Part shown: positions 15,646 through 34,306 of the stretch, piece by piece
Position numbering within the stretch: position 1 is the stretch's first letter
How the letters are laid out: every line of letters begins with the position of its first letter
From: Alloacidobacterium dinghuense
Lineage (GTDB): Bacteria > Acidobacteriota > Terriglobia > Terriglobales > Acidobacteriaceae
DNA length: 64,000 nucleotides
Reading direction: 5' to 3'
Assembly (NCBI RefSeq): GCF_014274465.1
Contig: NZ_CP060394.1
Location: forward strand, 4,898,001 to 4,962,000
Made by a program: the position numbers and the translations under genes
The notes under the pieces: model-generated
Databases searched by the model: none
What the model was told of the DNA's origin: nothing
What the model saw: only the letters and a program-made list of their open reading frames with translations

Positions 15646-18600
15646 TTAGGGGTTCTTGCTAAGCCGTTTATAGTATTCGGCCACTGAATCCTGATATCCG
15701 TCTGGAATCGAGAAGGGCTTGCCGGTGCGCGCTTGTGTCGAGGCATCGTCGCGCTGCAACTGCAATTCGATGCGATCAAGGGAACTAAGAACGTCTCGGT
15801 GCATTTGCTCCACGATTTCGGGATTGCCGGGGAAGCGTTTGGGATCGAGTCGTTGCATCTGTCGCGCCAGGTCCTGAACTTCTTTCGCAGCCTGCGGGTC
15901 GTTTTGCACCATCTGGCGCAGCTGATTCAGCTCGCGCACGCCTTGTTGGTAGAAGCGTTCGTTGTCTGCAGGATTGCCAGAGGCATCCATTGGAATGTCG
16001 TGATGAATCCCCTGGCCATAGCGGTTGTCGCCAGTGTTGATGTTGCCCAATACAGCGCCGTCTGCGGCAGTTCCACTGCCGTAGCGTACATCACCACTTG
16101 GACCCGATTGATTGCGCGTTGGCTCGCCGGAAGAGCCTTCTCGTTGCAAGCGGCCCTGTTGTCTTTGACCTGATTGTCCTCCGGCACGCTGCTCCTGGCC
16201 CCTACTGTATGGCTGCCCGTTGGGATCACGCCCACCGCGTTGACCATTCTGGCTCTGCTGCTGGCCTCCACTCATCGCCTCAAGCTGGCTGCGCAGTCGC
16301 TCTACCTGATTCAACATGGCTGTCTCATCTCCAGGTGCCGCGCCGCTATTCTGTCTGGCTTTCTCCTGCCCCTGCCCGGGCTTTTCCTGTCCCATGGCTT
16401 GCTGCGCTTGCCGAAGCTGCTGACTCAATTTTTGTAGTCCCTGTGCGATTTCGGTCTCGGTGCCGTTCGTGTTGGGATTGATCCCGCTCCGCAGCCAGTC
16501 GGCTGTTCTCTGCATGTGGTTGTCGAGATCGGACTGGTCCATCTCAGCCAGTGCATCACGCAGCTTCTGCGAGACACCGGGCTGGTTCGGAGCCACCTCA
16601 CGCGCCGTGTCACGAAGGTTCCTCTGCAGCTTCGACAGATCATCGGAGAGTTGCTGCCGTTCGCCGGCCAGTTGATTGCGCTGCCGAAGCTGCTCCATCA
16701 TGCGATCCCGATCCATCTGGCTATTTGCCGCGTCGTCTGTCGCATCATCGTCGCGTTGCTGACCAGTGAGTTTGTTGATGCGGTCTGACTGTGCCCGTTC
16801 TTCTTGCGTCAACCGGTCGGCTTCATGCGAGAGAGAGTTCAATTTACCAGATGCCATCTGCTGCTGTGTGCCGCCCAACAGATTTGCCGCCTCGCGCAGT
16901 TGGTCAGCGGCCTGACGCGCCGCATCGGTGCCCTGCTGAGGACTGCCGCTGCGCTTCATCGCCTCGCCTGCCTGGCGCAGACGGCTCAAAGCCTGCTCGA
17001 TGCGCTGGTCTGAACTTTGCGAGGGGCTTTGGGAGGAGCCTTGCGAGCCAGACTGGCCGCTTGCTTGCTGTTGTTGCCGTGACGTCTGAGATCCGTTCTG
17101 CGACGATGCACTTTGCTGCTGCGAACCAGATTGTCCTGAGGAAGACGCTCCACTTGAGCCTTGCTGTCCGTTCTGCTGTTGGCCCCGGTTGTTCTGCGCA
17201 AGCTGCTCCAGTTGACGCTGCAGTTGCTCGGCCTCGCGTCGCAGCATCTCCTGCTGCCAACGCTCCTGAAAGTTCTGTTGCGGATTTTGCTGCTGGTTCG
17301 CCAAATCTTGTTGCCGTCGGGCCAAAGCATCGAGCTTCGCCAGCGCATCCTCTACGTCTTTCTGGTGCTGCTCTGCCGGAGACGTGCTCTGCGCCGTCTC
17401 ATACTGATTCTTCTCAGTGTCCAGCTCAAGATCGAAGAGGCTGGCCAGGTCGCGTCCTGCGCTGTTGACGCCACCGCCCCCGCCGCCCTGCTGCCCGAAA
17501 GCAACTTCAATCTTGCGGAAAGTTGCCTCGGCATGAAGCAGCGCCTGCAGCGCTTTCTGCTCCAATGGAATGGCGTCCTTCCACTGCGTTGCCTTCAGCT
17601 TGTCTGCGGAAGGAGCCATAGCTGCGGCTGCCGTCTGCATATCTTTTTCAAAACCGTTGAACTCTTCGTTCGCTTCAGAGAGATCGCGGCTTTCCATGCG
17701 CGCTGAGAGCGCCATTACCTGGTCGCGCAGTTTCTGCTGGGCCTCGGAGAGGAATTGCCCTTGCGCCGCGGAATCCTTCGGAGTTGCAGACTTGTCGTTC
17801 TGCTGCTTCCAGGTTGCGGCAATCAGCTCTTTTTCGCGCTTAGAGATTTCAATCTGGTTGTTCTGACCGCCACCGCCTCCTCCGCCACCACCCATTTGCT
17901 GCGACTGCGAAAACTCGCGCTCGAACGGATCAGCCTGGATGAAGGTGATATCCGTGCGCGACTCGGCATGACCATCCTTTGCGGTTGCATAGAGACTTAC
18001 CAGATCGCCGGGCACCAGCTTGAAATCTTCGAGCGGCAACGTGTAAGAACCGTCGGCATTCTTTTCTCCTGGAGCCTTGAGCAGGCTCACGTCGCGATCC
18101 GGGCCTCCATTTACGGAGTAATGCAGATGCACATCATTGAGCCCGAATTGATCCGCTGCCTTTACACCGACCGTTACCTCTTCGATCGGGCTGGCGCGGT
18201 AATCGCCGCCTGGGCGACTGATGGCAACCTCCGGGGGCGTCGCCTGTTCCGCGGCGATGAAGTAGTCCTCAGACAACCTTACAGATTGGCCTTCATCGGT
18301 GGCGGCGAGATGATAGGCGCCATCCTTTGTCATGTGGATCGTGCCCTGGTACTTGTTTCCGCTGCCGTCCTTCAGCTGAATTGCGTGACCGTCATCGAGC
18401 GTGAGCTGACCATTCTTCAAAGGATGATCCATCTCAATCTCGATCGCCGCATCCGTTCCCTCGATGGCGCGCAGGTCGCCGGTATGCTCTTCGGTGATGG
18501 GCTTCAATCCGGTCCACTTCGGATACTGGTAGGTCACGCGGATGCCCTTCACAGCAGGGAGATCGACGACACGCACTTTGTAGTGTGGTGAAACCAGCGG

Positions 18601-19389
18601 ACCGGCCGCCACGTAGTATTCAACGTTCTCCGGCAGTCCCGCAAAGGCGAATTGATATGTTGCTGCGCCGCCCGCGTCCGGCTGCGCCTGCATGGTCACC
18701 GGTTCCCATGCGGTTGTGCTTTGGTAGTGAGCGAAGATCTGTGCTTTTTCCGGCTTCATGCCGAGGACACGCGCGGTAATCAGCTGATCAGCGTTTCGCC
18801 GCACGGCAACGTCGCCGGGCGTCACCACGATCGAGTAAAACGGAGTTGCATCCTTCTTCGGTCCAGTCCAAAGGAGGGAAGCGCCATAACCCAGATACCC
18901 CGGGCCTGCGGCGATCGTCCACACGAGCACGCCAAGACACGCAAGTCCCGCACCGCTCAGCGCAAAGAGCCGGTTATTCGGAACCAGGGAAGACAGCTCC
19001 GCATTCCGCGCTTGCGACAGTGTATCGGCGGCCAGCAGTTCCAGAAACGGGTCGCTGCCGTTGCGTTCGCGTTCATGGAATGTCGTGAGTCGCTGATCGA
19101 ATTCAGGATATGCCGCTTCAGTCTGGCTCACGGCATGCGTCCGCGTGAGATGGATGAGCGGGAGGGCAATGCCAAGCACTGCGGTTGCGGCAAGGGCGGC
19201 GAAGAGTGCCAGACGTGCTCCTGCAACTCCTTGCGATGGAAAGGCTAAGTGATTGAGCAGCAGCACGAGCGCAACCGTGACGATGAGCGCCGTTCCCGTA
19301 AAGAGAGCCGCGCCACGCAGCCACGCGCCCAGCCGCAATCTCTGCTGCAGTCGAGCAATGTAGGAATTGAGCTCATCCCGCCTGCTCAT
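15646..19389 (-). CDS. DUF4175-type large membrane protein with Gln-rich domain
   Basis: The product has 1247 residues. Two or three membrane helices lie at about residues 20-85 and one near 150-170. Then follow beta-rich extracytoplasmic domains (PGDVAVRRNADQLITARVLG), and after roughly residue 510 a long coiled, Gln/Ser/Gly-rich part introduced by a nine-glycine run. The layout fits DUF4175/TIGR02302 proteins, which sit at the end of MoxR-DUF58-vWA clusters. Role unproven; an envelope scaffold is likely. The ATG at 19389 overlaps the stop of the preceding gene (ATGA). The longer frame to 19479 would overlap 30 codons of that gene and is rejected. The last gene of the eight-gene operon. Confidence 0.8.
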   Translation of the reverse strand: MSRRDELNSYIARLQQRLRLGAWLRGAALFTGTALIVTVALVLLLNHLAFPSQGVAGARLALFAALAATAVLGIALPLIHLTRTHAVSQTEAAYPEFDQRLTTFHERERNGSDPFLELLAADTLSQARNAELSSLVPNNRLFALSGAGLACLGVLVWTIAAGPGYLGYGASLLWTGPKKDATPFYSIVVTPGDVAVRRNADQLITARVLGMKPEKAQIFAHYQSTTAWEPVTMQAQPDAGGAATYQFAFAGLPENVEYYVAAGPLVSPHYKVRVVDLPAVKGIRVTYQYPKWTGLKPITEEHTGDLRAIEGTDAAIEIEMDHPLKNGQLTLDDGHAIQLKDGSGNKYQGTIHMTKDGAYHLAATDEGQSVRLSEDYFIAAEQATPPEVAISRPGGDYRASPIEEVTVGVKAADQFGLNDVHLHYSVNGGPDRDVSLLKAPGEKNADGSYTLPLEDFKLVPGDLVSLYATAKDGHAESRTDITFIQADPFEREFSQSQQMGGGGGGGGGQNNQIEISKREKELIAATWKQQNDKSATPKDSAAQGQFLSEAQQKLRDQVMALSARMESRDLSEANEEFNGFEKDMQTAAAAMAPSADKLKATQWKDAIPLEQKALQALLHAEATFRKIEVAFGQQGGGGGGVNSAGRDLASLFDLELDTEKNQYETAQSTSPAEQHQKDVEDALAKLDALARRQQDLANQQQNPQQNFQERWQQEMLRREAEQLQRQLEQLAQNNRGQQQNGQQGSSGASSSGQSGSQQQSASSQNGSQTSRQQQQASGQSGSQGSSQSPSQSSDQRIEQALSRLRQAGEAMKRSGSPQQGTDAARQAADQLREAANLLGGTQQQMASGKLNSLSHEADRLTQEERAQSDRINKLTGQQRDDDATDDAANSQMDRDRMMEQLRQRNQLAGERQQLSDDLSKLQRNLRDTAREVAPNQPGVSQKLRDALAEMDQSDLDNHMQRTADWLRSGINPNTNGTETEIAQGLQKLSQQLRQAQQAMGQEKPGQGQEKARQNSGAAPGDETAMLNQVERLRSQLEAMSGGQQQSQNGQRGGRDPNGQPYSRGQEQRAGGQSGQRQQGRLQREGSSGEPTRNQSGPSGDVRYGSGTAADGAVLGNINTGDNRYGQGIHHDIPMDASGNPADNERFYQQGVRELNQLRQMVQNDPQAAKEVQDLARQMQRLDPKRFPGNPEIVEQMHRDVLSSLDRIELQLQRDDASTQARTGKPFSIPDGYQDSVAEYYKRLSKNP

Positions 19390-21428
19390 GCTTCCTCCCG
19401 CTGCGTACCTATGTAGCGGCTGGCAAGCGCCGTCTCCGCCAGCGCCACTACCAATGCAAGCAGCATAACGTACCACCACAGATTCACGCGGCGATATTTG
19501 ACGTCATCAACGACGGCCGCCTGTACGGGCACGCCGCCAGCGTTGTTTCCACTCCACAGTTGCAGCACATCCTGTGCAATTGGTTGCAGGTCCGACTCGC
19601 GACGATCAGGATTCACGCCAATCACCGCATCGCGTCCATTTGCAAATCGAACCTGATAGAAGCCGGCGCGCTGCAGCCGAAAAGTTTGCACCGTCCTCGC
19701 CTCACTGAGTGAGAGGGGCCGGCGCCCGTCCGGATCGATGACTTCTACGTTTGCAACCTCGCCGACTGGAGCGGTAGCGGAGCGAAGTTGCACAAACGAA
19801 TCCACGAGCTGGGATCCACTCAATCGCTCGTGCCCTGAAAGGTAGCGAGCGGCCTTGTCCACAAACGCCACAAAAACAGGATGCAGCGGTAAATCGTTCG
19901 TCAGATTTTCCAGTCCCGAGGTTAAGAGCAGCACATGTCCCTCACCCGACTGCTTGTCCAGCAGAAGCGGCGTCCCGTCACTCAAACGGGCCGCTACGCG
20001 GGCCTGTCCCGGATCGACGGATGCAGCATAGAAGATTTTTGTCTCCGCCCAGCCTCCATTGTCGTGCCCAGGTTGCTCCTGCGCGAGCGCGGGATAAGTG
20101 AAGTCCACCTGACTGACCGAGGCGGCGGCCCCGGTGTGAGCGTAGTCGTGCACGTCCCTGGCATCAGCTCCCCAAAGCGGAATGCGCGCACGTCGTCCCG
20201 CGTTCGTGCCGAGGGCAATGAGAACGCCTCCTCCTTTGGCTACATACTGCGCCAGCGTGTGCTCAAAAATCGACGGCAGCGTTCCAGCATCTGACAGGAC
20301 CACAAAACCGAACTTTGAAGGATCCAGGTCCGTCGTCTGCTCTGCAGTCACCGACTGCAACAGGAATGACGTTGCTCCTGCGGCAGCCAGCGCAGCGCCA
20401 AAGTACACCGCAGACCGGATATCGTTCGAAGCATGCACGAACAACACCCGCTCCGGATCCGACCGGCGAATTACGAAGAGGCTTGCGTCATCGGCGGGAA
20501 AGGCGTCGCCTCCCTCAAGCCGTACCTCACACCGGTTGAAGCCATACCCCACATCAACGGGAGCGAACTCGACTGTCGCACGCCCATCGGCTGGGATTTT
20601 CACGTTTCGAGTTGCGACGGCCTTGCCGTTGATCACCAGCGATACAGTCTTCTCTGCCGCAGGAGTGCCGAAACCAGCCACCACGGCCTGCACGCGCGAT
20701 CGCTTCGGGTCTTTCGGATCTGCGAGTTCAGCCGGTGCGGTCACTCGCTCCACTGTCCAGTTGGGTGGAGCCGTGCCCTTCGCCACATCGTGGAGCACGA
20801 GTGTCGCGTTTGGCGGCAACATCATGTCGGCAAAGTTGGCAGGCATGGCCGTACGCTGCATGTCGCTGAACAGATGCAGATCGATAGGCCTATGCGATGT
20901 GTCCGCCATCGCACGGATAGTTCGCCCCAATTCGCCGAAGTTCGCATGTCCATCTCCGAGCTGAATGCTCTCGAGAGCCGAGCGCAGCTGTGCTTCATCG
21001 GAGATCGGTTGCGTCAGCATCTCGATCTGCCCCCCGAGCGCAATCACTTGCGCTTTCTGCGATGGAGGTTTCGCGGCCAGCAAAGCGAGCGCCTGCTGCC
21101 TTGCGTCGGCGAATCTCGTTCCCGCGCGCATACTGAACGAGCTATCCAGAACGATGAGCAATTCGTGTTCATTGGCGCCCGTTGCTGCGCGCCGCACAAA
21201 CGGTTCCGCAAAGGCGAACACTACCAGCAGGAGCAGTGCGGATCGCAGCGCAAAAAGCAGCAAATATCGTAAGCGCTGATGCCGCGTGGAACTCTGAATA
21301 CCACGTTCGAAGAACATCAGTGAACTCACCGGTCGCGGCGTAGTCACGTGCTTGCGCAGCAGATGCACAAAGACCGGCACGCCTAGCGCTGCCAGGCCTG
21401 TAAGAAACCATGGCGCCAGAAAGCCCAT
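19386..21428 (-). CDS. BatA-like protein with vWA domain
   Basis: The product has 680 residues. The N-terminal aerotolerance-type segment has two membrane helices (FLAPWFLTGLAALGVPVFVH and the helix near residue 60). A vWA domain follows, with an intact metal site (LIVLDSSFSM) and LHLFSDMQRT. Then come beta-sandwich regions, a glutamine-amidotransferase-like region, and a last membrane helix (WWYVMLLALVVALAETAL). In known clusters such proteins are thought to be handled by the MoxR ATPase. Start and stop both overlap the neighbours by a few bases, so translation is coupled. Confidence 0.8.
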   Translation of the reverse strand: MGFLAPWFLTGLAALGVPVFVHLLRKHVTTPRPVSSLMFFERGIQSSTRHQRLRYLLLFALRSALLLLVVFAFAEPFVRRAATGANEHELLIVLDSSFSMRAGTRFADARQQALALLAAKPPSQKAQVIALGGQIEMLTQPISDEAQLRSALESIQLGDGHANFGELGRTIRAMADTSHRPIDLHLFSDMQRTAMPANFADMMLPPNATLVLHDVAKGTAPPNWTVERVTAPAELADPKDPKRSRVQAVVAGFGTPAAEKTVSLVINGKAVATRNVKIPADGRATVEFAPVDVGYGFNRCEVRLEGGDAFPADDASLFVIRRSDPERVLFVHASNDIRSAVYFGAALAAAGATSFLLQSVTAEQTTDLDPSKFGFVVLSDAGTLPSIFEHTLAQYVAKGGGVLIALGTNAGRRARIPLWGADARDVHDYAHTGAAASVSQVDFTYPALAQEQPGHDNGGWAETKIFYAASVDPGQARVAARLSDGTPLLLDKQSGEGHVLLLTSGLENLTNDLPLHPVFVAFVDKAARYLSGHERLSGSQLVDSFVQLRSATAPVGEVANVEVIDPDGRRPLSLSEARTVQTFRLQRAGFYQVRFANGRDAVIGVNPDRRESDLQPIAQDVLQLWSGNNAGGVPVQAAVVDDVKYRRVNLWWYVMLLALVVALAETALASRYIGTQREEA

Positions 21429-22315
21429 CAATTCCCCGCGTGCCGCAGCGAAAGATATTCGCGCAATGCTGTGTCGAGTGGTTGATCAGTAACGAGCAGG
21501 TGATAGTCCATTCCCGCTGCTCGCGTGCGCGAGCGAAGCTGCTCGATATGTGTCTGCATCTTCGTGCGATAAGTTGTCTTCGTGAATTCGGGGATCACCT
21601 CCATCTCTCGGTCGGTCTCAAGATCAACAAGGATCGCTGGTCCCTTCAGTTCGGGCCTTATCTCCTGTGGATCGAGAATGTGAAACAGAACCACATCGTT
21701 GCCGTGAAAGCGGAGTGGCTCGATGATGCGCACAATTGTGTCCGGCTCCTCGTAAAAGTCGGAGATCACGATGACGATGCCGCGCCGGTGCAACAGAGCC
21801 TGGAAATGGCGAAGCGGCTTGGAGAAATCCGTCCGCGCCCGTGGCTCAGCGCGTTCTAGTCCGGCTAGAAGACGCATCAGTTGGCCTTGCCGCGTTGATG
21901 GTCGGATATAATCTCGAACCTCATCGTCGAAAACAATCAGGCCAGCAGCATCTCTCTGATTGCGAATCGCGAGATAGAAGAGCGACGCAGCCATGAAGCG
22001 CGCGTAGTCCATCTTCGACGGCGGTCCGGATGTGTATTGCATCGAGTTGCTCGCATCGAGCAGCACTGTCACCTGGCTGCTTGTCTCGCCGCGATAACGC
22101 TTCAGATAGCAGCGCTCAGTGCGCGCGAATAGATTCCAGTCCACATGGCGAAGATCATCGCCGGGGCTGTAAGCGCGATACTCAGCGAACTCCTGACTGA
22201 AGCCGAAGTCCGGCGATCGATGCAAACCGGCGACGAAGCCGTCCACCACCGTCTTTGCCAGCAAGTCCAGCGAGGAGATGCCGGCCAGAACCCTGGGATC
22301 GAGGAAACGCTGCAT
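21428..22315 (-). CDS. DUF58 protein (vWA-like MoxR partner)
   Basis: The product has 295 residues. The DUF58 signature is EYRAYSPGDDLRHVDWNLFA, followed by a vWA-type metal site LLDASNSMQY and IVISDFYEEPDTIVRII. No membrane helix. DUF58 proteins are the standard partners of MoxR ATPases, encoded immediately downstream of them, as here (the stop of moxR and this ATG share one base). They are likely adaptors that link the ATPase to its vWA clients. Confidence 0.9.
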   Translation of the reverse strand: MQRFLDPRVLAGISSLDLLAKTVVDGFVAGLHRSPDFGFSQEFAEYRAYSPGDDLRHVDWNLFARTERCYLKRYRGETSSQVTVLLDASNSMQYTSGPPSKMDYARFMAASLFYLAIRNQRDAAGLIVFDDEVRDYIRPSTRQGQLMRLLAGLERAEPRARTDFSKPLRHFQALLHRRGIVIVISDFYEEPDTIVRIIEPLRFHGNDVVLFHILDPQEIRPELKGPAILVDLETDREMEVIPEFTKTTYRTKMQTHIEQLRSRTRAAGMDYHLLVTDQPLDTALREYLSLRHAGN

Positions 22316-23343
22316 CAGCTCTCCTTTGGCCGTGGCACCTGCGCGATGAGCCGGTTAAGAATCTCGTCCGCGTCGATCCTTTCAGACTCGGCGTGGAAAT
22401 TCAGCAGGATGCGGTGTCGCAGTACCGGAACCACCAGCGACGTGATGTCGTCGTAGGTAACGTGATAACGCTTTCGGGTAAGTGCTCGCGCCTTCGCGGC
22501 CAACACAATGAACTGTGCGGCGCGGATGCTTCCTCCATAGTTCACATATTTCTTCACGAAGTCAGGCGCGCTCCCGCTGTTGTGTCGCGTCGCGCGCACA
22601 AGGCCCACTACGTATCGCGCGAGTGTGTCAGCGATTGGCACCATGCGTACGAGTTGCTGAAAATCGAGAAGTTCTTCAGCCAACGTTACCGGTTCAATGT
22701 GTGGGATACGCGTGGTCGTTGTCATATCGACGACTTTGAGTTCGTCCTCGGCGCTCAAGTAATCCAGAATTGCATTGAATAGGAAACGGTCTAGCTGAGC
22801 CTCGGGCAGAGGATATGTGCCTTCGAGTTCAATCGGGTTCTGGGTTGCCAGCACGAAGAATGGCGCCGGAAGCTGATAGAGGTGTCCGCGCACCGTGCAC
22901 GAATGCTCCTGCATGGCCTCAAGCAGTGCAGCCTGAGTTTTCGGAGGTGTTCGGTTGATCTCATCGGCGAGGAGAATGTTGCCGAAGATGGGGCCTTTCA
23001 CAAATGTCCACTTGCGATGGCCGGTTGCCAAGTCTTCTTCGATAATGTCCGTGCCTGTGATGTCTGACGGCATCAGGTCAGGCGTGAACTGAATGCGCCT
23101 GAATTCAAGACCGAGAGTTTCGGCGATCGTCCGCACCATCAGGGTCTTGGCTGTGCCGGGCAGGCCGGTCAACAGGCAATGACCGCCCACAAAGAGCGCG
23201 ATCAGTACCTGCTCCAATACCTCATCCTGGCCCACGATCACTTCCCGCACCTGCTTCAGGATGCCTTGATGCACTGCGTGGAAGCGTTCTACCCGCTGTT
23301 GGAGTTCCGCTGCATCCGAATTCAGCTCGGCAAAAATAGCCAT
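22315..23343 (-). CDS. MoxR-family AAA+ ATPase
   Basis: The product has 342 residues. Walker A is GLPGTAKT, Walker B ILLADEINR, sensor 1 ATQNPIELEGTYPLPEAQ, and the arginine-bearing LDRF follows. Length and order are normal for MoxR. These ATPases act with vWA proteins as chaperone-like machines that insert cofactors or remodel partners. Two membrane vWA proteins and a DUF58 adaptor are encoded in the same operon, so the substrate is probably in this cluster. All catalytic motifs are intact. Confidence 0.92.
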   Translation of the reverse strand: MAIFAELNSDAAELQQRVERFHAVHQGILKQVREVIVGQDEVLEQVLIALFVGGHCLLTGLPGTAKTLMVRTIAETLGLEFRRIQFTPDLMPSDITGTDIIEEDLATGHRKWTFVKGPIFGNILLADEINRTPPKTQAALLEAMQEHSCTVRGHLYQLPAPFFVLATQNPIELEGTYPLPEAQLDRFLFNAILDYLSAEDELKVVDMTTTTRIPHIEPVTLAEELLDFQQLVRMVPIADTLARYVVGLVRATRHNSGSAPDFVKKYVNYGGSIRAAQFIVLAAKARALTRKRYHVTYDDITSLVVPVLRHRILLNFHAESERIDADEILNRLIAQVPRPKES

Positions 23344-23357
23344 GCGTCCTGTCCTCG

Positions 23358-25568
23358 TCAGTTCATTTTTTGTGATGCCTGATTCAACTCCAGCAACATC
23401 CTCTGCGCCGGACGGTAGCCAGGCGCAGCTTCCAGTGCCGCAAGCACGCTTTCCTGAGCCTTGTCCTTCTGTCCTGCCGCGAGGTATGCCTGTGCCAGAT
23501 GAAATTCCGCGCCGGCCTTGTCCAGCGGACCCGAAGCCACGACTGCCGCGTATTCGCGGATCGCACCGTCATATTGCTGCTGCGCATACAAGAGATCACC
23601 AAGCCGGCGATGCAACTCCTCATCTTTGACTGGATAGATATAGTTCACGCGCTCGAGCGTGGCCGCTGCCTCAGCCTGTTGGCCCGCGCCTTCTTCGAGT
23701 GTCGCGAGCCTCTTCAAGATCGCCGGATCCTGACCACCCTCGTGTTCATATGCGGTCAGCACCGCCGCTTCAGCCTTCGAGTCGCCTTTTTCCCTGTGCG
23801 CATCCGCCAACAACTCATACACATTCGCGTCGTCTACATATTCGGGATACATCGCCAACGTTGCGGGCCCCTGCACCAGTACAGTGTCGTACTGCTTCTG
23901 TTCGGATGCTGCCACAAGCGCCTTCAGCTTTTCGCGCCAATCGTTGAAGCGTGCGGCCTCCGCGCCGTACTTCTTGTCCATCCACGCAAGGTACTGCTTA
24001 TCAAACTCCTCCGGCGTCAGCCCCAGATCCTGTTGCACCACCTGCGGCGTCGTTTTCAGGTGAGCGTAGGAGTGAATCATCGCAAGCAGCTTCTCGCTAC
24101 CCCAACGTTCCTTCACAAAATCGCAGATGGTGCCCGCCTGAAAGTACGACACGATGACCTGCGACGGGTAGTCGGGATAAACAAAACCGCGGTCGAGCTT
24201 GGCGATGGGCAGCAGCTTCTTATCGCGAACGGCGACCAGAACGTCCGGTGTGAGCCGGTCGGCCCACTCCGATGAGTGCTCGCCCTCTTCATGCACCGCC
24301 AGCCCTTCGGTGAACCAACGCGGCACGCGATGATTCGTGGCGGTAAGAACGTAAACATGGCTCATCTCATGCCACAGTGTCGAACCCCAGTTGAAATCTC
24401 CGGGCTTGCGCGCCGATGGGCTATCCATGGCGACGACTTCTCCGAACGTAACGCCCAGTGCACCGAGTCCCGGCATGCCCGTCGTGCGCACGGCGAAGTC
24501 CTCATGGTCCGGATAAACCTCCACCTGCACCGGGGCGGGCAACTTCATTTGGTACTTCTTGTCGTAAGTCGCGATGATCGTGTGCAACTCGGATTGCATG
24601 TACGGTTGCAACAGGCCGGCCTCAGTCTTCTTCAACTTCAGGATTGTGGTGTCATCGCGAATGGTTACAAAGTTTTTGTAGCTGTCGAGCAAGCGCAGGC
24701 TGTTGACCGTCGCAGCATCGCGATAGCCGTTGTCGTAGCTCAGCCCCAGCTCCTTCATCGGTTCGTCTTCTTTGCCAAGCCGCATAAGGTCGATGCCGAG
24801 CGCCGAATGGGCACTCCAGAGCCGGGGATCAGCTTCGATTGCCTTCCGATAATAGGTTGCTGCATCCTCGTAGCGGTAATGCAGCTCGAGCTGGTCCGCT
24901 ACGTCTGCATAGGCTTGCCCGTACCCCGGATTTACTGCCGTAATCTTCGCAAACCATGCATCGGGAGAACGATCGGCGAGCAACTCAACAGCCGCGTGAA
25001 CCGCCATCGCATCCAGTGCATCATCTTCGAGCGCGATCGCTTTATCCGCCTCAGCGACAGCCGCATCGCGGTCGTCATTCTGCAGCGCCAGACTAGCCAT
25101 CAGCTCGTGTGCTTCAGCCAGCTTCGGATTAAGCTCAATGGCCTTCGCCGCATACGCCGTCGCTTTGCCGTCAAATGTGTCTGCAGAAACAATCGCGAGC
25201 CCCAGATATGCCGGAGCAAACAATTGATCTTTTGCCAGCGCTTCGCGGAAGAGATCAGCTGCTTCGCGATTGTTGAAACGCTCGTGCAGCAACATTCCCC
25301 AACGCACTTTGTAAAGAGCGCTACTATTATCCGGCTGCGTAGCCAGGCGGAACTGTTCGTTTGCCTGCTGCCATTCTTCCAGTCCCCAGAAGCCTTCGGC
25401 GCGGGCGTACGCATCGTTGCTGTGGGTGAACCGCTCGAAGCATGCCTGTGCCTCCGTGCGATGGCCGTGCTTACGCAGTGACCAGCACTCTGCGGGTGCT
25501 CCCGCAAATGCGGATGCTGTCGATGCGCACATCTGCAGCAAAAGAAGACCTGGGGCGAGGTGTTTCAT
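23358..25568 (-). CDS. TPR protein with peptidase-MA-like metallopeptidase domain
   Basis: The product has 736 residues. A signal peptide (LLLLQMCASTASAFAGA) is followed by tetratricopeptide repeats, an MA-clan peptidase core near residue 397 (TLWHEMSHVYVLTA, with PRWFTEGLAVHEE giving the third ligand), and further TPR-type helices to the end. HExxH plus the downstream glutamate is intact, so it may be an active periplasmic zinc peptidase. It stands between the pseudo-caspase gene (stop/start overlap ATGA) and moxR (14-base gap), so it belongs to the same operon. Confidence 0.85.
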   Translation of the reverse strand: MKHLAPGLLLLQMCASTASAFAGAPAECWSLRKHGHRTEAQACFERFTHSNDAYARAEGFWGLEEWQQANEQFRLATQPDNSSALYKVRWGMLLHERFNNREAADLFREALAKDQLFAPAYLGLAIVSADTFDGKATAYAAKAIELNPKLAEAHELMASLALQNDDRDAAVAEADKAIALEDDALDAMAVHAAVELLADRSPDAWFAKITAVNPGYGQAYADVADQLELHYRYEDAATYYRKAIEADPRLWSAHSALGIDLMRLGKEDEPMKELGLSYDNGYRDAATVNSLRLLDSYKNFVTIRDDTTILKLKKTEAGLLQPYMQSELHTIIATYDKKYQMKLPAPVQVEVYPDHEDFAVRTTGMPGLGALGVTFGEVVAMDSPSARKPGDFNWGSTLWHEMSHVYVLTATNHRVPRWFTEGLAVHEEGEHSSEWADRLTPDVLVAVRDKKLLPIAKLDRGFVYPDYPSQVIVSYFQAGTICDFVKERWGSEKLLAMIHSYAHLKTTPQVVQQDLGLTPEEFDKQYLAWMDKKYGAEAARFNDWREKLKALVAASEQKQYDTVLVQGPATLAMYPEYVDDANVYELLADAHREKGDSKAEAAVLTAYEHEGGQDPAILKRLATLEEGAGQQAEAAATLERVNYIYPVKDEELHRRLGDLLYAQQQYDGAIREYAAVVASGPLDKAGAEFHLAQAYLAAGQKDKAQESVLAALEAAPGYRPAQRMLLELNQASQKMN

Positions 25569-26503
25569 TTGTCGAGATCCTCCTGGACCTTCGCCAACTC
25601 CAGCAATGCCGCCGTCAGCTGCCTCTTGTAGTCGTCAGGATCCATCGCCGCTTTCTGATACTTCAACGTGTCGATCTTCTGTTCCAGCTCCTCCTTTTTT
25701 GTCAGCAAGATGCGTTTCGCCGGATCGTTTGCCGCCTGCTGACTTGAGCCAATACGCAGCACCGTGAAGCTCGACATGAGCGCACCCTGACCGTTGCTGG
25801 CTTCGCGAACCGGCGCGCCGCTGCCTGTGTCGTCAAAGACTGCGTGCTCGGTCGCGAGCCGCTTCTGCGAGTCGTAAAAGGCTGCCGTCTTCTTCGTCGC
25901 GTAGATAAAGGCTTCCATGGCGCTGATGGAATCGCTCTTATCCGTATCGGCTTCAGGGTCCTGCAACGCCTCGACCCAGTACCTCGCGAAGACTGTGGCA
26001 TTCTTTTCCGTGCCTGATTTTGTCGCCGCGATCACAGCACGCCCCGGCCGCTCGAATGCTGGAATAGCCCCGCCACTCGCGCTGGTTGCATCAACGATCA
26101 GCTGACGTCTCGCCTGAATGCGATCGCACATTGCCGCGATCTCGCCAGCCGTGACATCCGGTCCCACCAGGTTGAACTTGTACTCGACGCCATCAAAGGA
26201 ACCGTGACCGATGAGTATGAGTACAAAGTCGTCGTCTGCCTTGGCCTCGCGCGCGACAGTTCCGAGAGTTTCTTTTAGTTGGGGTGACGTGGCCTGTGCG
26301 CCGGTGAGTGTGTAGACGTGCGCGGTTGCGTCGCCAGCCTTGAATACCTTATCCAGATCCTGCGCCGCCGCCGTGAAACGTTGCTCGTAATCCGGCTCCC
26401 CGCCCAGTCCCGCCACCGTGACGTAATACACCGCCGCGTGGGCTTGAAGAGTAAGCGCAAATGCAGCCATGACAAACCGCAGGCGTCTCACACAACACCC
26501 CAT
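25565..26503 (-). CDS. Secreted caspase-fold protein lacking the catalytic cysteine
   Basis: The product has 312 residues with signal peptide (RRLRFVMAAFALTLQAHAA). The caspase-like core shows the histidine strand DFVLILIGHGSFDG (about residue 97). The strand that should end in the catalytic Cys reads QLIVDATSASGG (about residue 137), with Thr/Ser in place of Cys. A helical C-terminus (EELEQKIDTLKYQKAAM) ends in a coiled coil. A peptidase activity is therefore unlikely, and a binding role is more plausible. The start at 26503 overlaps the previous gene by 16 bases; an ATG at 26470 would shorten the signal. Confidence 0.75.
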   Translation of the reverse strand: MGCCVRRLRFVMAAFALTLQAHAAVYYVTVAGLGGEPDYEQRFTAAAQDLDKVFKAGDATAHVYTLTGAQATSPQLKETLGTVAREAKADDDFVLILIGHGSFDGVEYKFNLVGPDVTAGEIAAMCDRIQARRQLIVDATSASGGAIPAFERPGRAVIAATKSGTEKNATVFARYWVEALQDPEADTDKSDSISAMEAFIYATKKTAAFYDSQKRLATEHAVFDDTGSGAPVREASNGQGALMSSFTVLRIGSSQQAANDPAKRILLTKKEELEQKIDTLKYQKAAMDPDDYKRQLTAALLELAKVQEDLDK

Positions 26504-28773
26504 TTGCGTCGCAATACCCACTCGGCTATCGGCAGCCCCAGCAGCAGCACGAAGACGATCGGCATGTTCCACAGCTCATTCGTGGTGCGAACGGAAATGC
26601 CTGCTTCGGAATAGGCAATATCACGCGGCAAATTCTTCAGATCGGAAGGATCCCAGTAACGTCCACCTGTTTGCGATGAGAGTTGCTCAAGCAGCGACCG
26701 ATTCTGCTCCGTATGAAAATTCTCGGCAACGCCATCCTCACGCTGGAAGGTCAGTACATCACTACCCAGTTCCTGCGGCTGTGCTCCTCGCGACTCAGCG
26801 GTAACCTCCGCCAGATAGGCACCTGGTTTTTCCGCGGTCCACTCCGCCTGGTACGAACCCGGAGTATCCCGCGATGGGGTGAGGTCGATCAACGCATTCG
26901 CGCTTTCCGGCCCTACGATGTGGGCTATAACGTGTGCATCAGCCGCTGGCTGAAATTGTCGGTCACGCACCTGCGCCGAAATTTGCACATGTCCTTCATC
27001 CATCAGTACACGCCCCGGCATAGATGCAGTCACGGGACCGGGAGAATCCGCAACCAGCCAGCGCAGAAGCTGTTGCCAGAAGAGATCGTGGGACGGATCG
27101 CCCAACGCCTCACTCATCTGCCAGCGCCATGTGCCGCCGGTCGCCATGATTGCAGTGCGTCCATGACCGTAACTCTGCGTAATCAGCATCGGCAGCTTGC
27201 GGTGCCCCACATCCATTTGCGCAAGCACCGTAGCACCTGGTTTGGGAGAACCCGCATCTTCGTAGTCGGCCAGATAGGTGAGCTTCTTCCAGCGTTCAGC
27301 ATTCTTTGCCGGATCGTCCAGCAACCGCGTAATGGGCGAGTCCACACCTGCCGCAGTGAGTTCCACCTTGGCAGAATTGCGATGGAAGTTGTTGCGACCC
27401 GAGGGAAGAAAGGTCGGCAGGAGATCGTTCATGCTCGACGCGCCCCAACCGCCGTCGCTCAATGACGAGCGGCCACCAAGAAAGAGGACACCGCCGCCGC
27501 GTCGATCGACATACTCACGCAGCAACTCCTGCTGCAGCGGCGTGAAGTAGTCAGCGTCGACAGAACCGATAATGATGCCTGCATAACCGAACAGATTCTC
27601 CGGTCTAACGGGAAAACCATCTGCCAGTTCGCTGGGATCGCTAATACCCTGCCGATAGATCTTGTTCTCGCTCGTACGCAGCATCGAGACGACCTGCACG
27701 GTTGGATCATCATCTTCCGCGCGTCGAATGAATTTGAACTCCCACCGCGGTTCGCCTTCGACATACAGAATCCGCCGCTTGGCATCGCTTACCAGCACTG
27801 GTCGCCTCATCGTATTGTTGCTAAGGTTTTCCTCAGAGGCCAATGGCTCGATCCGGAACTGAAGACTCTTTGCACCAGCCGCACCAGCGGAAAAGAAAAC
27901 CTGTTCCGTCTGCAGGACTCCGTTGGGCGCCAGCGTCACCTCGCGCGCCGCGAGCGTCTTGTCCCCATCGCGCACAGTGAGCATTGCCTTCTGGCCACTG
28001 TAGCCATGCTCTTTCAAGCTGAGCGTCGCAGTCAGTCGCGCATTCACGATAGCGCTGGAAGCAACATTCACATCTTCCAGTTCCACGTCGTGCGCTCGGT
28101 CCACATTGCCGAATCCTACCGTATGGACAGGCAAGCGGCGATTGCGCAGCGACTGCAGGGCATCTACTCCTATCCCCGATCCACCCATTCCGGCAGTGTT
28201 CTCCCCGCCGTCACTGAGCAACAGGATCGCACCAATGGGAAGGTCTGCCGTCTCCTGAGCAAGCTGTTTCAGCCCATCTCCGATGTGCGTTGCTCCTTCT
28301 GTGGGCGCAACGCCGCTTAGCCCATCAATCTTGGCAACTCCGCTGCCAAGCCGATAAAGGCGGGTTTGAAAGCGCTGCTGCAATCCGGCAAGCATGCCCT
28401 CCTGAAGTGCGGCTACAGCCGCTGCCTCGCGCGTTTTGCCGTTGCTGTCCGCAATTGCCATGCTGCGCGAGTCATCCACCACCACGGCGATGATGTTCTG
28501 TTGCGAACTAAGCGCCGACACGGTAATTGCGGGCTGCCACAATAACAGCAGAATGAGCGCCACGAGCGCCGATTGCATACCCCATACAGCCCATGCGCGC
28601 CAGGTCTGCAATTTCGGCGTAGCATCGCGCAGTCTTCTGCGCACCAGCAGGGCGAGGCCTGCCGCGAACGCGACGATCAGCACCGGCAGCAGCCATTTGG
28701 GCCACGTTGAGAGCAGCACAAGGCGTCCTTTAGTAAAGACCGGGCTCGGATATTTGAAGAGAAATTGAAACAT
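26488..28773 (-). CDS. Large membrane protein with vWA and GATase-like domains
   Basis: The product has 761 residues. Two membrane helices lie near the N-terminus (WLLPVLIVAFAAGLALLV and ALVALILLLLWQPA), then a vWA domain with metal site VVVDDSRSMA, THIGDG and ILLLSDGGENT, then beta domains. A glutamine-amidotransferase-like fold follows (ILYVEGEPRWEFKFI, GGGVLFLGGRSSLSDGG), and a last membrane helix closes the protein. It resembles the DUF4159-linked vWA proteins of other MoxR clusters. The catalytic Cys of real amidotransferases is absent. Second gene of the operon, 70 bases behind DUF4159. Confidence 0.8.
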   Translation of the reverse strand: MFQFLFKYPSPVFTKGRLVLLSTWPKWLLPVLIVAFAAGLALLVRRRLRDATPKLQTWRAWAVWGMQSALVALILLLLWQPAITVSALSSQQNIIAVVVDDSRSMAIADSNGKTREAAAVAALQEGMLAGLQQRFQTRLYRLGSGVAKIDGLSGVAPTEGATHIGDGLKQLAQETADLPIGAILLLSDGGENTAGMGGSGIGVDALQSLRNRRLPVHTVGFGNVDRAHDVELEDVNVASSAIVNARLTATLSLKEHGYSGQKAMLTVRDGDKTLAAREVTLAPNGVLQTEQVFFSAGAAGAKSLQFRIEPLASEENLSNNTMRRPVLVSDAKRRILYVEGEPRWEFKFIRRAEDDDPTVQVVSMLRTSENKIYRQGISDPSELADGFPVRPENLFGYAGIIIGSVDADYFTPLQQELLREYVDRRGGGVLFLGGRSSLSDGGWGASSMNDLLPTFLPSGRNNFHRNSAKVELTAAGVDSPITRLLDDPAKNAERWKKLTYLADYEDAGSPKPGATVLAQMDVGHRKLPMLITQSYGHGRTAIMATGGTWRWQMSEALGDPSHDLFWQQLLRWLVADSPGPVTASMPGRVLMDEGHVQISAQVRDRQFQPAADAHVIAHIVGPESANALIDLTPSRDTPGSYQAEWTAEKPGAYLAEVTAESRGAQPQELGSDVLTFQREDGVAENFHTEQNRSLLEQLSSQTGGRYWDPSDLKNLPRDIAYSEAGISVRTTNELWNMPIVFVLLLGLPIAEWVLRRKWGVV

Positions 28774-28843: not shown

Positions 28844-29647
28844 CTAATGAGTCATGCCATAGAGTATGTAGTCGAGCCCCACCCGAAAGGCCATCGATGC
28901 GAACGCTTCCGGATAGTTCGGATCGTCGGCCCACTCCCACGCATCGCCCAGGTGCATGTTGTGGCAAATAGCCACCATGATCCGCCCTTTGTCATCGCGG
29001 ATCGCACGCCACTTGGGCTGATAACCGTCTTTCTCATAGGTGCGTCCGGTACGAATCCACTGCTCGCCCGGAATCTGCATCTTGTCATCCACATCGTAGA
29101 GTGTGTGGAAGATTTCGTCGCCGCTGGCAAGGTCCTCGACTGGACGGTCAGGCAGCACCTGCCGCATGCCGTTCATGAAATTCTCCCAGTCTTCGGTGCC
29201 ATGAAAATCGTCCACCATCAGAAAGCCGCCTTTGAGCAGGTACTCTCGCAGCCGCTTGGCTTCCGCGTCATTAAAGGACCATAGCTGCACCTGCACCGCG
29301 TAAATCCACGGGTAGTTGAAGATCTCGTCGTTGTCGAGCGTGACCACCTGCTCTGTCGGGCGGCCATCGATGCGGGTCAACCGGTGCATGGCAATAAGAA
29401 ATTGGCGATCGGCTTTTGGATAGTCGCGGGACCAGGCAAAGCGGCCCCAATAGCCCCAGTGGCTGTAACCGCCGAAGTTCTGCATGTTTACTGTGTAAGC
29501 CAGCCGCGACCAATAGAATTCCGCCTTCACGTTGACCGGAGAGTCGTCATTGCCGAAGCCGAAATCAGCAACCCGTTGGTACGCCCGCAGACCCACGCAG
29601 CAGCCAGCAATCGCCGCTGACACCAATGCGATCTGCGAGAACTTCAT
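28844..29647 (-). CDS. DUF4159 protein
   Basis: The product has 267 residues, with an N-terminal membrane or signal segment (IALVSAAIAGCCVGLRAY). The DUF4159 domain has DNDEIFNYPWIYAVQVQLW, LREYLLKGGFLMVDDFHG and VAICHNMHLGDAWEWADDP. The fold is amidotransferase-like without known activity. It is the first gene of the eight-gene minus-strand operon; its promoter must lie in the 190-base gap to the divergent multicopper oxidase gene. The family occurs almost only in clusters of this kind. Confidence 0.85.
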   Translation of the reverse strand: MKFSQIALVSAAIAGCCVGLRAYQRVADFGFGNDDSPVNVKAEFYWSRLAYTVNMQNFGGYSHWGYWGRFAWSRDYPKADRQFLIAMHRLTRIDGRPTEQVVTLDNDEIFNYPWIYAVQVQLWSFNDAEAKRLREYLLKGGFLMVDDFHGTEDWENFMNGMRQVLPDRPVEDLASGDEIFHTLYDVDDKMQIPGEQWIRTGRTYEKDGYQPKWRAIRDDKGRIMVAICHNMHLGDAWEWADDPNYPEAFASMAFRVGLDYILYGMTH

Positions 29648-29839: not shown

Positions 29840-31267
29840 TTGAAACGTCGCGACTTACTCAAGCTCGGCGGTCTGGCCCTGGCGCAGGCAGGGACAACGC
29901 GGCTGCCACTCTTCTCCCAAACGAGTCCGGCTGCATCTCCGGATAAAGCAGACTACACGCTGCGTATTGCTCCCGTGACCGTCGAGCTTGACCGCTCGCA
30001 CATCCTCTCAACAATCGGCTACAACGGATCCGCTCCGGGTCCGGTGCTGCGAATGCGCGAGGGTAAACCAGTCAGCGTGGACGTCATCAACGATACTGAC
30101 ACGCCCGAGTTAGTGCACTGGCACGGGATGCTCATCCCCGCCGAGGTAGATGGCACGGAGGAAGAAGGCTCGCCCGTCGTGCCTCCGCATGGCCGCCGCC
30201 GTTTCCAGCTCACACCCGGGCCGGCCGGGAGCCGCTGGTATCACTCGCACGCCATGGCGATGGATAACCTGCACAAAGGCGCATATACCGGCCAGTTCGG
30301 CTTTGTTTATGTCGACGGCGGCAACAACCCGGGGCAGTATGATCAGGAACTCTTCCTCGCCTTGCGCGATTGGGAGCCGTTCTTCACCAGCGTCATGGAA
30401 GACGATGATGATGACACCCATAACGGTCCTCTGCTGGAAAAGCCGGAGACATTAAACACCAATCCTGACGGCCTCGAAGTCGGCTCCCTGACTTATTCCA
30501 TCAACGACAAGGCGCTCGGTTCCGGCGAACCGCTCCGAGTCCGCCAGGGCCAACGGCTGCTGATTCACTTTCTCAATGCCAGCGCCATTGAAAACCGGCG
30601 CATCGCGCTCGCCGGTCACAAAATGAAGGTCGTCGCGATGGACGGCAACCCGGTGCCGACGCCGAAAGCGCTCGATTCCATCTTTCTCGGCGCAGGCGAG
30701 CGTATTGATGTCGTCGTTGAATTGAACAATCCTGGCGTCTGGATTCTCGGTTCGACGGAAAAGATGATCCGCGAATCCGGCCTCGGCGTCGCAGTGGAGT
30801 ACACCGGACAGCACCATAAGCCACAATGGATTGACCCGCCGAGAGCACCTTGGGACTACACCATCTTTGGGACCGCAACCTCCAGTTCACCCGCCCCGCA
30901 ACAGACCATCGAGATGATCTTCGAGAAAATTCCTCGGGGCTACGGCAAATTCAATTCCTGGCTCATCAATGGCAAGCCCTACCCGCATGAGCGTGAGTTC
31001 GTGCTGCAGCAGGCCACTCGCTACCGTCTGGTGATGCGCAACCGCACCGACGACGCCCACCCCATGCATCTGCATCGGCATTTGTGGGAGCTCGTCGAAA
31101 TCAACGGCAAGAAGACCGCCGGCATCATGAAGGACACTGTCGTTGTCCCCTATTACGGTCGAGCCGTCGTTGACTTCACCGCGGATCAACCCGGCCTATC
31201 ACTCTTCCACTGTCACATTCAGCAGCACATGGACTATGGTTTCAAGGCGCTGTTTCAGTCCGCTTGA
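29840..31267 (+). CDS. Multicopper oxidase
   Basis: The product has 475 residues. A twin-arginine-like start (KRRDLLKLGG) indicates export in folded form. All four copper-binding motifs are present: HWHG (about residue 93), WYHSH (135), HPMHLHRH (407) and FHCHIQQHMDYG (457). The last contains the cysteine of the type 1 centre. No methionine-rich insert of CueO type is seen, so laccase-like or metal-oxidising roles are all open. The start is TTG; an out-of-frame mini-ORF (ATG AGG CAG) runs into it and ends on the TGA that overlaps the start, which could couple translation. It is divergent from the DUF4159 operon. Confidence 0.88.
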   Translation: MKRRDLLKLGGLALAQAGTTRLPLFSQTSPAASPDKADYTLRIAPVTVELDRSHILSTIGYNGSAPGPVLRMREGKPVSVDVINDTDTPELVHWHGMLIPAEVDGTEEEGSPVVPPHGRRRFQLTPGPAGSRWYHSHAMAMDNLHKGAYTGQFGFVYVDGGNNPGQYDQELFLALRDWEPFFTSVMEDDDDDTHNGPLLEKPETLNTNPDGLEVGSLTYSINDKALGSGEPLRVRQGQRLLIHFLNASAIENRRIALAGHKMKVVAMDGNPVPTPKALDSIFLGAGERIDVVVELNNPGVWILGSTEKMIRESGLGVAVEYTGQHHKPQWIDPPRAPWDYTIFGTATSSSPAPQQTIEMIFEKIPRGYGKFNSWLINGKPYPHEREFVLQQATRYRLVMRNRTDDAHPMHLHRHLWELVEINGKKTAGIMKDTVVVPYYGRAVVDFTADQPGLSLFHCHIQQHMDYGFKALFQSA

Positions 31268-32684: not shown

Positions 32685-33416
32685 TTACTTGAGCTGTGTG
32701 TTTGGCGGAATGACAGCAATTGCCATCTGGAGCTGCGTACCGTCGTCGAGATGAACGTTCTTCTTCTTTGCGGTGAACACCCCTGAATCGGACTGATGGA
32801 TATCGCTCTGGAGTTGGACGCCGGCAATGCCCTGCTGCGCAGGCTGCGGTTGCGAGGAATCTGACGCGCTTGGCGCCATACTCGGCGCAGGCTGCGACTG
32901 AGCCGGCTGCATTCCTCCCCCTGAGCCACTTGGCGCTGATGGCGCTGGAGAGCTAGGCATCGATGGAGTACCGCCCGCAGCAGAAGCGCTTTCCTGATTT
33001 CTCATCGCGCTTGGCGGAGGGGCAATCTGCATGATGGTGACCTTGATGGCGAGCTGCTGTCCATTCTTCAGCTGAGCTTTATCAAAGGTCACCTGCACCG
33101 AAGAATCGCCTTTATTCTCAGATGGCTGCACCTGGTCAATCCGACCCAGCAAAACGGTATTCTTTGGCAAATCCACCGAGTCCGGGATCTTCACATCATC
33201 CTGCAGCTTGGCCGTTACAGCATCGCCCTGCTTCGCTTTCTTGGCATCAATCCCCTTACTCAGCGACGCGCGAGCACCTACCATGTCGATCTTTTTTTCT
33301 GGAGCGCTATCCGTCGTCGCAGGGGCGGATGATGCATCCTGGGCGCGTCCGGCAATTGGACACACAGCCAACGCCAGCACGGCGGTCAGAATCCAGGCAT
33401 TTTTCATTTCCTTCAT
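32685..33416 (-). CDS. Secreted protein, paralogue of the next gene
   Basis: The product has 243 residues. A signal peptide (WILTAVLALAVCPIAGRAQD) precedes a beta domain with GIDAKKAKQGDAVTAKLQDD, LPKNTVLLGRIDQVQ and VQVTFDKAQLKNGQQL. A Ser/Pro-rich linker (residues about 140-200) and a short C-terminal beta part ending IAVIPPNTQLK follow. The fold resembles a periplasmic beta barrel or OB-type domain; function unknown. AAAGGAG stands before the ATG at 33416, which is preferred to the start at 33500. It shares its layout and many phrases with the gene at 33623-34306, so the two arose by tandem duplication. Confidence 0.7.
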   Translation of the reverse strand: MKEMKNAWILTAVLALAVCPIAGRAQDASSAPATTDSAPEKKIDMVGARASLSKGIDAKKAKQGDAVTAKLQDDVKIPDSVDLPKNTVLLGRIDQVQPSENKGDSSVQVTFDKAQLKNGQQLAIKVTIMQIAPPPSAMRNQESASAAGGTPSMPSSPAPSAPSGSGGGMQPAQSQPAPSMAPSASDSSQPQPAQQGIAGVQLQSDIHQSDSGVFTAKKKNVHLDDGTQLQMAIAVIPPNTQLK

Positions 33417-33622
33417 CGACCGATCTCCTTTCAAGAACCCTTCTTTGTGGGAACACCTACGAGCGGGATTGCGTTGCCTAGACAGAAAGAAAGCACTCAC
33501 GACATGAACTGAAGGTGGGCGTAAATGACGAAATAGAAACGGCTTCGAGTCGTGTCACGAAATCAGCAAGGTGGAATCGCCGCAATCAGGGCCCGAAAAG
33601 AGGTAGCCTATTGCGTCGCTCG

Positions 33623-34306
33623 TCAGCGAACGTCTGTATTGGCCGGGATTACTGCAATGGCAAGCTGGATTAGCGTGCCGCCCGACAGTTGAATATTGCG
33701 GCGTTTCGAAGTGAAGGTTCCCGAGACGGCATCATGGATGTCACTTTTCAACTCAACTCCCGCAATTTGGCATGCTGGCTGATTCGTCGGCTCGGAACTA
33801 CTTGCCTGTCCGGTTGGAGCCGCCATTGGAGTGGAACCGCTGGGAGTCCTTGTGCCGGTAACTCCGCTCTGAGACGCCATCGGCATGTGAGGCTCCAGCG
33901 AAGGACTGGCCTGATCGGTAAGAGTAGCCGGAGGCGATACCCGAATGATCGTGGCTTTGACGGGGATTTGCTGACCGTTTTTTAGTTGCGCCTTGTCAAA
34001 AGTGACCTGAATCATTGAGTCGCCTTTGTCCACCGATGGCTGGACCTGGTCTACATGGCCAACCAGCACTGTGTTCCCGGGCAGGCTGGGTGCGTCAGGA
34101 ATCTTCACCTCTTCCATCAGTTTCAGGATCACAAGATCGCCTGGCCTGGCTTTTTTCGTATCCAGGTCTTTGCTGAGCCACGTGCGTGCGCTGACCATGT
34201 TTATGCGTCCGGTTGTATTGCCGGAGGCATCTTGACCATGCGCGACCGCGGGACTGAGGAGGATGGCGATCATAGCCGCGAACGGAAACAGATAGCTTTT
34301 CTTCAT
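33623..34306 (-). CDS. Secreted protein, paralogue of the preceding gene
   Basis: The product has 227 residues. A signal peptide (FPFAAMIAILLSPAVAHGQD) precedes the same core: DLDTKKARPGDLVILKLMEE, LPGNTVLVGHVDQVQ and IQVTFDKAQLKNGQQIPVK. A Ser/Thr/Pro linker follows, and then an ending IAVIPANTDVR. The two copies differ mainly in the linker. A GGGGG ribosome site precedes the ATG. A gap of about 206 bases separates the paralogues, so each may have its own promoter. Confidence 0.7.
   Translation of the reverse strand: MKKSYLFPFAAMIAILLSPAVAHGQDASGNTTGRINMVSARTWLSKDLDTKKARPGDLVILKLMEEVKIPDAPSLPGNTVLVGHVDQVQPSVDKGDSMIQVTFDKAQLKNGQQIPVKATIIRVSPPATLTDQASPSLEPHMPMASQSGVTGTRTPSGSTPMAAPTGQASSSEPTNQPACQIAGVELKSDIHDAVSGTFTSKRRNIQLSGGTLIQLAIAVIPANTDVR

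Follow-up and report, generated by a model that had tools for sequence, protein, structure and literature searches.

Operons that combine a MoxR ATPase with DUF58 and Bat proteins are widespread and poorly understood. MoxR systems have been described as chaperone-like (PMC3893208). The same paper, citing Vanderlinde 2011, states that Rhizobium leguminosarum requires RL3499-RL3502, where RL3499 is the MoxR protein, for the integrity of its envelope and for its cell shape. For the inactive caspase domains of MoxR-vWA systems, a role in peptide binding or as dominant-negative components has been proposed (Kaur et al. 2020, PMC7159879). More generally, pseudo-orthocaspases account for 8.6% of bacterial caspase homologues and 90% of them belong to Alphaproteobacteria and Cyanobacteria; they usually lack the catalytic His as well, carrying pairs such as Tyr-Ser or Phe-Ser, and Acidobacteria are not mentioned in the survey that defined these numbers (Klemencic et al. 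2019, PMC6426788). Here we examined a caspase-like protein encoded inside a MoxR operon of soil-dwelling Acidobacteriota. A literature search found no description of this family or of this particular gene combination.

The gene lies in the window, that is, the whole stretch of 64,000 nucleotides of Alloacidobacterium dinghuense DNA that was analysed. The genes of its cluster, in the order in which they follow one another on the minus strand, and the motifs discussed below are:

28844..29647, minus strand: DUF4159 protein, first gene of the cluster (Pfam)
26488..28773, minus strand: membrane protein with a BatB-like vWA domain (MIDAS D100-S102-S104), inserted Ig-like strands and a GATase1-like domain (vWA/GATase protein)
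25565..26503, minus strand: pseudo-caspase of predicted clan CD fold (Pfam-less; AF2 model, structure matches and hhalign), with an N-terminal signal-peptide-like segment, His100, Ser141, an EF-hand-like loop D186-E197 and a C-terminal helical hairpin
26201..26209, minus strand: Gly99-His100-Gly101, the retained catalytic-His motif of the pseudo-caspase, counted from the ATG at 26503
26081..26083, minus strand: codon of Ser141, at the catalytic-Cys position of the pseudo-caspase, counted from the ATG at 26503
25913-25948, minus strand: EF-hand-like loop DTDKSDSISAME, residues 186-197 of the pseudo-caspase
23358..25568, minus strand: TPR protein with a gluzincin site (HExxH, WxxEG) and Peptidase_MA_2 (Pfam), an optional member
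22315..23343, minus strand: MoxR AAA+ ATPase with intact Walker motifs (Pfam)
21428..22315, minus strand: DUF58 vWA protein (MIDAS D87-S89-S91) (Pfam)
19386..21431, minus strand: BatA-like membrane vWA protein (Pfam, NCBIfam)
15646..19479, minus strand: DUF4175 protein (the coordinates give the extent of the ORF, not a fixed start)

From the vWA/GATase gene through the DUF4175 gene, neighbouring genes overlap or are separated by gaps within 14 bp, and the DUF4159 gene lies 70 bp upstream of the vWA/GATase gene. At its 5′ end, the pseudo-caspase gene shares 16 bp with the end of the vWA/GATase gene, and at its 3′ end it shares 4 bp with the start of the TPR-peptidase gene. All named neighbours of the pseudo-caspase are backed by Pfam. 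Their order agrees with that given in the original prediction (vWA, pseudo-caspase and TPR metallopeptidase, then MoxR and DUF58). The presence of a MoxR protein with Walker motifs, of DUF58 and of a double-TM BatA vWA protein with a MIDAS identifies the cluster as a MoxR-DUF58-Bat operon. A scan for promoters and terminators gave results at chance level. A second DUF4159 gene is present in the same genome outside the cluster (C1:3409031-3409609). Divergent from the operon, on the plus strand, lies a gene that by eye is multicopper-oxidase-like (29840-31267). Further along, the minus-strand genes 32685-33500 and 33623-34306 are adjacent and encode similar secreted-looking proteins with common stretches, e.g. 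VQPS.DKGDS.VQVTFDKAQLKNGQQ, apparently as a result of tandem duplication.

The ATG at 26503 opens an ORF that carries the motifs GHGS and VDATSASGG, as had been claimed. The protein of the window itself showed no direct family match in Pfam and NCBIfam. Nevertheless, Peptidase_C13 was matched by 23 of 62 diverse homologues (best E 1.1e-9), the family profile matched plant metacaspase-4 (E 1.6e-6), and hhalign of the family against caspase homologues of the same phylum that keep the Cys gave a probability of 99.2, with residues 155-200, after the Cys loop, aligning with the same segment of these proteins. The AF2 model, built from an alignment of nine homologues, had a mean pLDDT of 80. Foldseek searches with it retrieved legumain, caspases, MALT1 and the bacterial protein GSU0716, VIA-align gave Z 20.3 for legumain/AEP and 18.9 for metacaspase-4, and the good matches in a BFVD fold search were viral caspases only. 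The predicted structure has the alpha/beta arrangement of the caspase/legumain fold, with the His motif before and the CxSG-type loop after adjacent strands. Taken together, the Peptidase_C13 and metacaspase-4 matches and the Foldseek and VIA-align results make the assignment sound: the gene product is predicted to fold like caspase/legumain, clan CD.

The residue standing at the catalytic-Cys position had originally been read as Thr140. When the family profile was aligned to metacaspase-4, whose structure was solved as a C139A mutant, residue 139 of the latter paired with column 141. Likewise, hhalign against three same-phylum caspase-like proteins that keep the Cys (L211-L213) paired IDACHSG with ATSASG, so that the Cys of L213 fell on Ser141. 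Because the two profile alignments agree, we assigned Ser141 to the catalytic-Cys position and ruled out Thr140, as both alignments point one residue later. An early HMMER alignment to 3bij, which pointed to Ala142, was weak (E 0.005). A shifted nucleophile at Cys142 was also considered; Cys is absent there in 94% of the homologues, and active relatives carry His or Glu at this place. Cys142 does occur in 10 of the 173 homologues (L031, L034, L041, L044, L045, L151, L169 and others), with about five changes on the tree.

We then compared conservation around the former active site in a set of 173 distinct homologues whose identity reached down to about 27%. His100 was invariant (173/173), thus preserving the catalytic His within [G/D]HG that active Peptidase C13/C14 members carry, while the catalytic Cys of these enzymes was found at position 141 in none of the 173. 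Instead, position 141 was occupied by Ser (153), Glu (7), Thr (3), Asn (3), Gly (3), Pro (2) or Ala (2). The original prediction of a dead caspase fold was thereby supported, and the Cys-bearing homologues that it had named as a refutation did not appear; its expectation that Thr or Ser always replaces Cys failed in 17 of the 173 sequences, the other 156 having Ser or Thr. At position 140 we found Thr 131, Ala 25 and Ser 17 times, and at position 142 Ala 114, Ser 42 and Cys 10 times, plus others; Ser143 was kept in 169/173. On a tree inferred with the motif columns removed, position 141 changed between Ser/Thr and other residues at least 10 times, and among the 62 diverse members column 141 ranked 78th of 307 by conservation. 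In the same 62 members, Gly99, His100, Gly114, Asp116, Asp186, Glu197, Glu219 and Asp225 were invariant. Since site 141 drifts, unlike a nucleophile, we interpret the protein as a pseudo-peptidase, and its description as a dead caspase is, on sequence comparison, well supported though not proven. The segment Asp186-Glu197, which reads DxDxNGxxSxxE in most members, resembles an EF-hand loop and is also found in the Cys-bearing relatives; its first Asp and last Glu were invariant in the 173 homologues, and it may bind Ca2+. His100, Ser143 and Ala160-Thr161, around the old active site, were conserved to about the same degree as this loop.

The protein encoded just before the pseudo-caspase gave a model of high confidence, with a pLDDT of 92. 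Its vWA domain, which is near BatB of Bacteroides (Z about 18) and conserves the MIDAS DxSxS, is interrupted by Ig-like strands and a GATase1-like domain; the Pfam match of the latter was borderline (26.9 bits against a cut-off of 27) and was confirmed by fold (Z about 24.5 to 3rht). The protein contains a pair of TM helices separated by an Arg-rich loop and, at its C-terminus, a further TM helix with Arg-Arg-Lys after it. By positive-inside reasoning, these features suggest that the ectodomain, residues 81-735, is periplasmic. The signal-peptide-like N-terminus of the pseudo-caspase, judged by eye, points to export, and the protein would therefore share a compartment with this ectodomain.

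Of 396 Acidobacteriota genomes, 118 gave a match to the family in a profile search, a few of these being weak partial matches to other caspases, and the GTDB contig collection yielded 244 pseudo-caspase loci. We examined the context of 120 loci, which are not independent, as there is some overlap between collections. The vWA/GATase gene lay directly upstream of the pseudo-caspase gene in all 109 testable loci, in agreement with the conserved gene order proposed originally. MoxR was in the same cluster at 106 of 108 loci, so that the lack of co-occurrence that could have spoken against the prediction was not observed; one exception (L226) is truncated by the end of its stretch and the other (L085) is a partial second copy in a genome with a complete operon on another contig. 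The most frequent layout (87/106) was vWA/GATase, pseudo-caspase, TPR peptidase, MoxR, DUF58, BatA and DUF4175. In 7 loci the same order lacked the TPR peptidase, and in 12 loci the rearranged order MoxR, DUF58, BatA, DUF4175, vWA/GATase and pseudo-caspase was found. The most degenerate active-site loops of the pseudo-caspase belonged to this rearranged layout. The pair formed by vWA/GATase and pseudo-caspase thus survives in operons that are rearranged or lack the TPR protein. In contrast, the TPR metallopeptidase was missing from 19 of the 106 operons with a pseudo-caspase, and the earlier idea of a machine with an active peptidase therefore finds no support as a generalisation. In the peptidase itself, HExxH and WxxEG were intact in 101 of 102 full-length copies. 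With motif and gene order both repeated at over 100 homologous loci, the association is more than chance, and we conclude that the operon is real and old.

In the taxonomic family of the window (150 genomes), pseudo-caspase, vWA/GATase protein and full TPR protein were present in the same 9 genomes, and the module was absent from the three other genomes of the window's genus, one of them near complete. The loci L215, L217, L218 and L231-L233 are of the rearranged type without TPR peptidase, and their loops mostly end in SF or SY; several genomes (e.g. G447, G175 and G423) have operons of both types. One Bryobacterales MAG contains a complete operon and a short copy (L085 and L240), the latter with only DUF4159, vWA/GATase, pseudo-caspase and BatA. 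A search of a plasmid collection located the family in Gemmatirosa kalamazoonensis (Gemmatimonadota), in the same gene order on a megaplasmid; in the deposited record of this locus (L236 10181-12696) the pseudo-caspase is read partly in one frame and partly in another, perhaps because of a frameshift or of an error in the sequence.

The reading that we favour, to which we give an even chance, is that the protein is a periplasmic pseudo-peptidase which, as a subunit of the vWA/GATase protein, binds a peptide or a protein within a MoxR-DUF58-BatA-DUF4175 envelope system. Having lost the catalytic Cys while keeping the His, the segments around the old active site and the Ca2+-type acidic loop, the pseudo-caspase would bind a peptide or protein in the old active-site groove, presenting or sensing it, and would physically contact the vWA/GATase protein. 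These two would form the envelope side of the system, BatA, DUF4175 and the vWA/GATase protein its membrane part, and the cytosolic MoxR-DUF58 would supply ATP-driven remodelling. The TPR metallopeptidase would be an optional executor, to which the pair may hand substrates over or which it may gate. The envelope role is a possible one, borrowed by analogy from the distant RL3499-RL3502 operon, and the adjacency of the vWA/GATase and pseudo-caspase genes could reflect translational coupling only. The protein is probably a binding or scaffold part, not an enzyme.

Other explanations account for part of these data. A regulator specific to the TPR metallopeptidase, acting as inhibitor, propeptide-like chaperone or substrate adaptor, would be in line with the 4-bp overlap of the adjoining genes in the window and with the 87 of 106 operons in which the peptidase gene stands between pseudo-caspase and MoxR; we consider it unlikely, as 19 operons do without the peptidase in the cluster and the vWA/GATase gene is never missing. 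Slightly less probable is a structural Ca2+-dependent scaffold, whose groove has no ligand and whose fold persists solely for the sake of surface contacts. The invariance of D225 and of key positions in the EF-hand-like loop D186-E197 speaks for it, but a bare scaffold would have no need of His100, Ser143 and Ala160-Thr161, whose conservation is close to that of the Ca2+ loop. A MoxR-vWA conflict system of VMAP type, with the inactive caspase as the effector-position domain, finds a precedent in the inactive caspase domains reported in MoxR-vWA ternary systems (Kaur et al., PMC7159879). Yet Pfam found no VMAP-type domain in the operon proteins, PADLOC gave only weak AAA matches, the caspase is encoded separately and is probably exported, and across the phylum the operon keeps its form without a variable effector slot, so that we hold this reading to be the least probable of all.

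Ser141 is present in 88% of the members, and a serine nucleophile is formally possible in those. An active serine-type hydrolase of the caspase clan, with Ser141 in place of Cys, would explain why His100 is invariant, why 156 of the 173 homologues have Ser or Thr at 141 and why 169 keep Ser143. If the Ser-bearing majority were a working serine hydrolase or peptide ligase with a caspase/legumain fold in the envelope, it would bring a serine-type enzyme into a clan that, to our knowledge, is known only for cysteine enzymes. We judge the active hydrolase very unlikely: the 17 homologues with Glu, Asn, Gly, Pro or Ala at 141 have operons that are otherwise intact, the state of this site changed at least 10 times, its column is far below the fold core in conservation, and natural Cys-to-Ser caspase homologues are presumed inactive (PMC6426788). 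The hydrolase or ligase in the Ser-bearing majority seems fainter still, and for a serine enzyme in the Ser-bearing members there is a small residual chance.

Compared with known systems, the binding subunit that we propose shares with C13 (legumain, GPI8) and C14 (metacaspases) proteins the predicted fold, the GHGS/HGS motif and the CxSG-type loop (SxSG here), and the EF-like DxDxNG loop is common to the pseudo-caspase and to Cys-bearing caspase homologues of the phylum; unlike them, it lacks the catalytic Cys in all 173 homologues. The trypanosome metacaspase TbMCA4, in which Ser replaces Cys, is also considered a pseudopeptidase, although it is eukaryotic and its context is unrelated to the operon described here. 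RL3499-RL3502 and the Bat operons combine, as here, a MoxR-family protein with vWA/Bat-type membrane proteins; they differ in that the accessible literature on them mentions no pseudo-caspase or TPR peptidase. VMAP MoxR-vWA ternary systems likewise unite MoxR, vWA and a catalytically inactive caspase, whereas in the present operon Pfam detected no VMAP protein as third component, the caspase is a separate ORF unfused to the vWA protein, variable effectors are lacking and the context is membrane-bound and probably periplasmic. The pseudo-orthocaspases are also bacterial caspase-fold proteins with a lost His-Cys dyad and frequent Ser at the Cys position; the present protein has a p20 fold with a substituted dyad in which the Cys is replaced and the His kept, and it is distinguished by the invariance of this His and by its place in a MoxR envelope operon. 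For the MoxR-DUF58-Bat operons, a constant inactive caspase partner of one membrane subunit offers a concrete point of attack, consisting of a single binding protein, its single partner and a predicted groove. Overall, the family is new but belongs to an already known type of pseudo-enzyme and to a known type of operon; to the pseudo-enzyme record it adds phylum-wide caspase relatives that lack the Cys and have an invariant His, in lineages beyond those surveyed to date.
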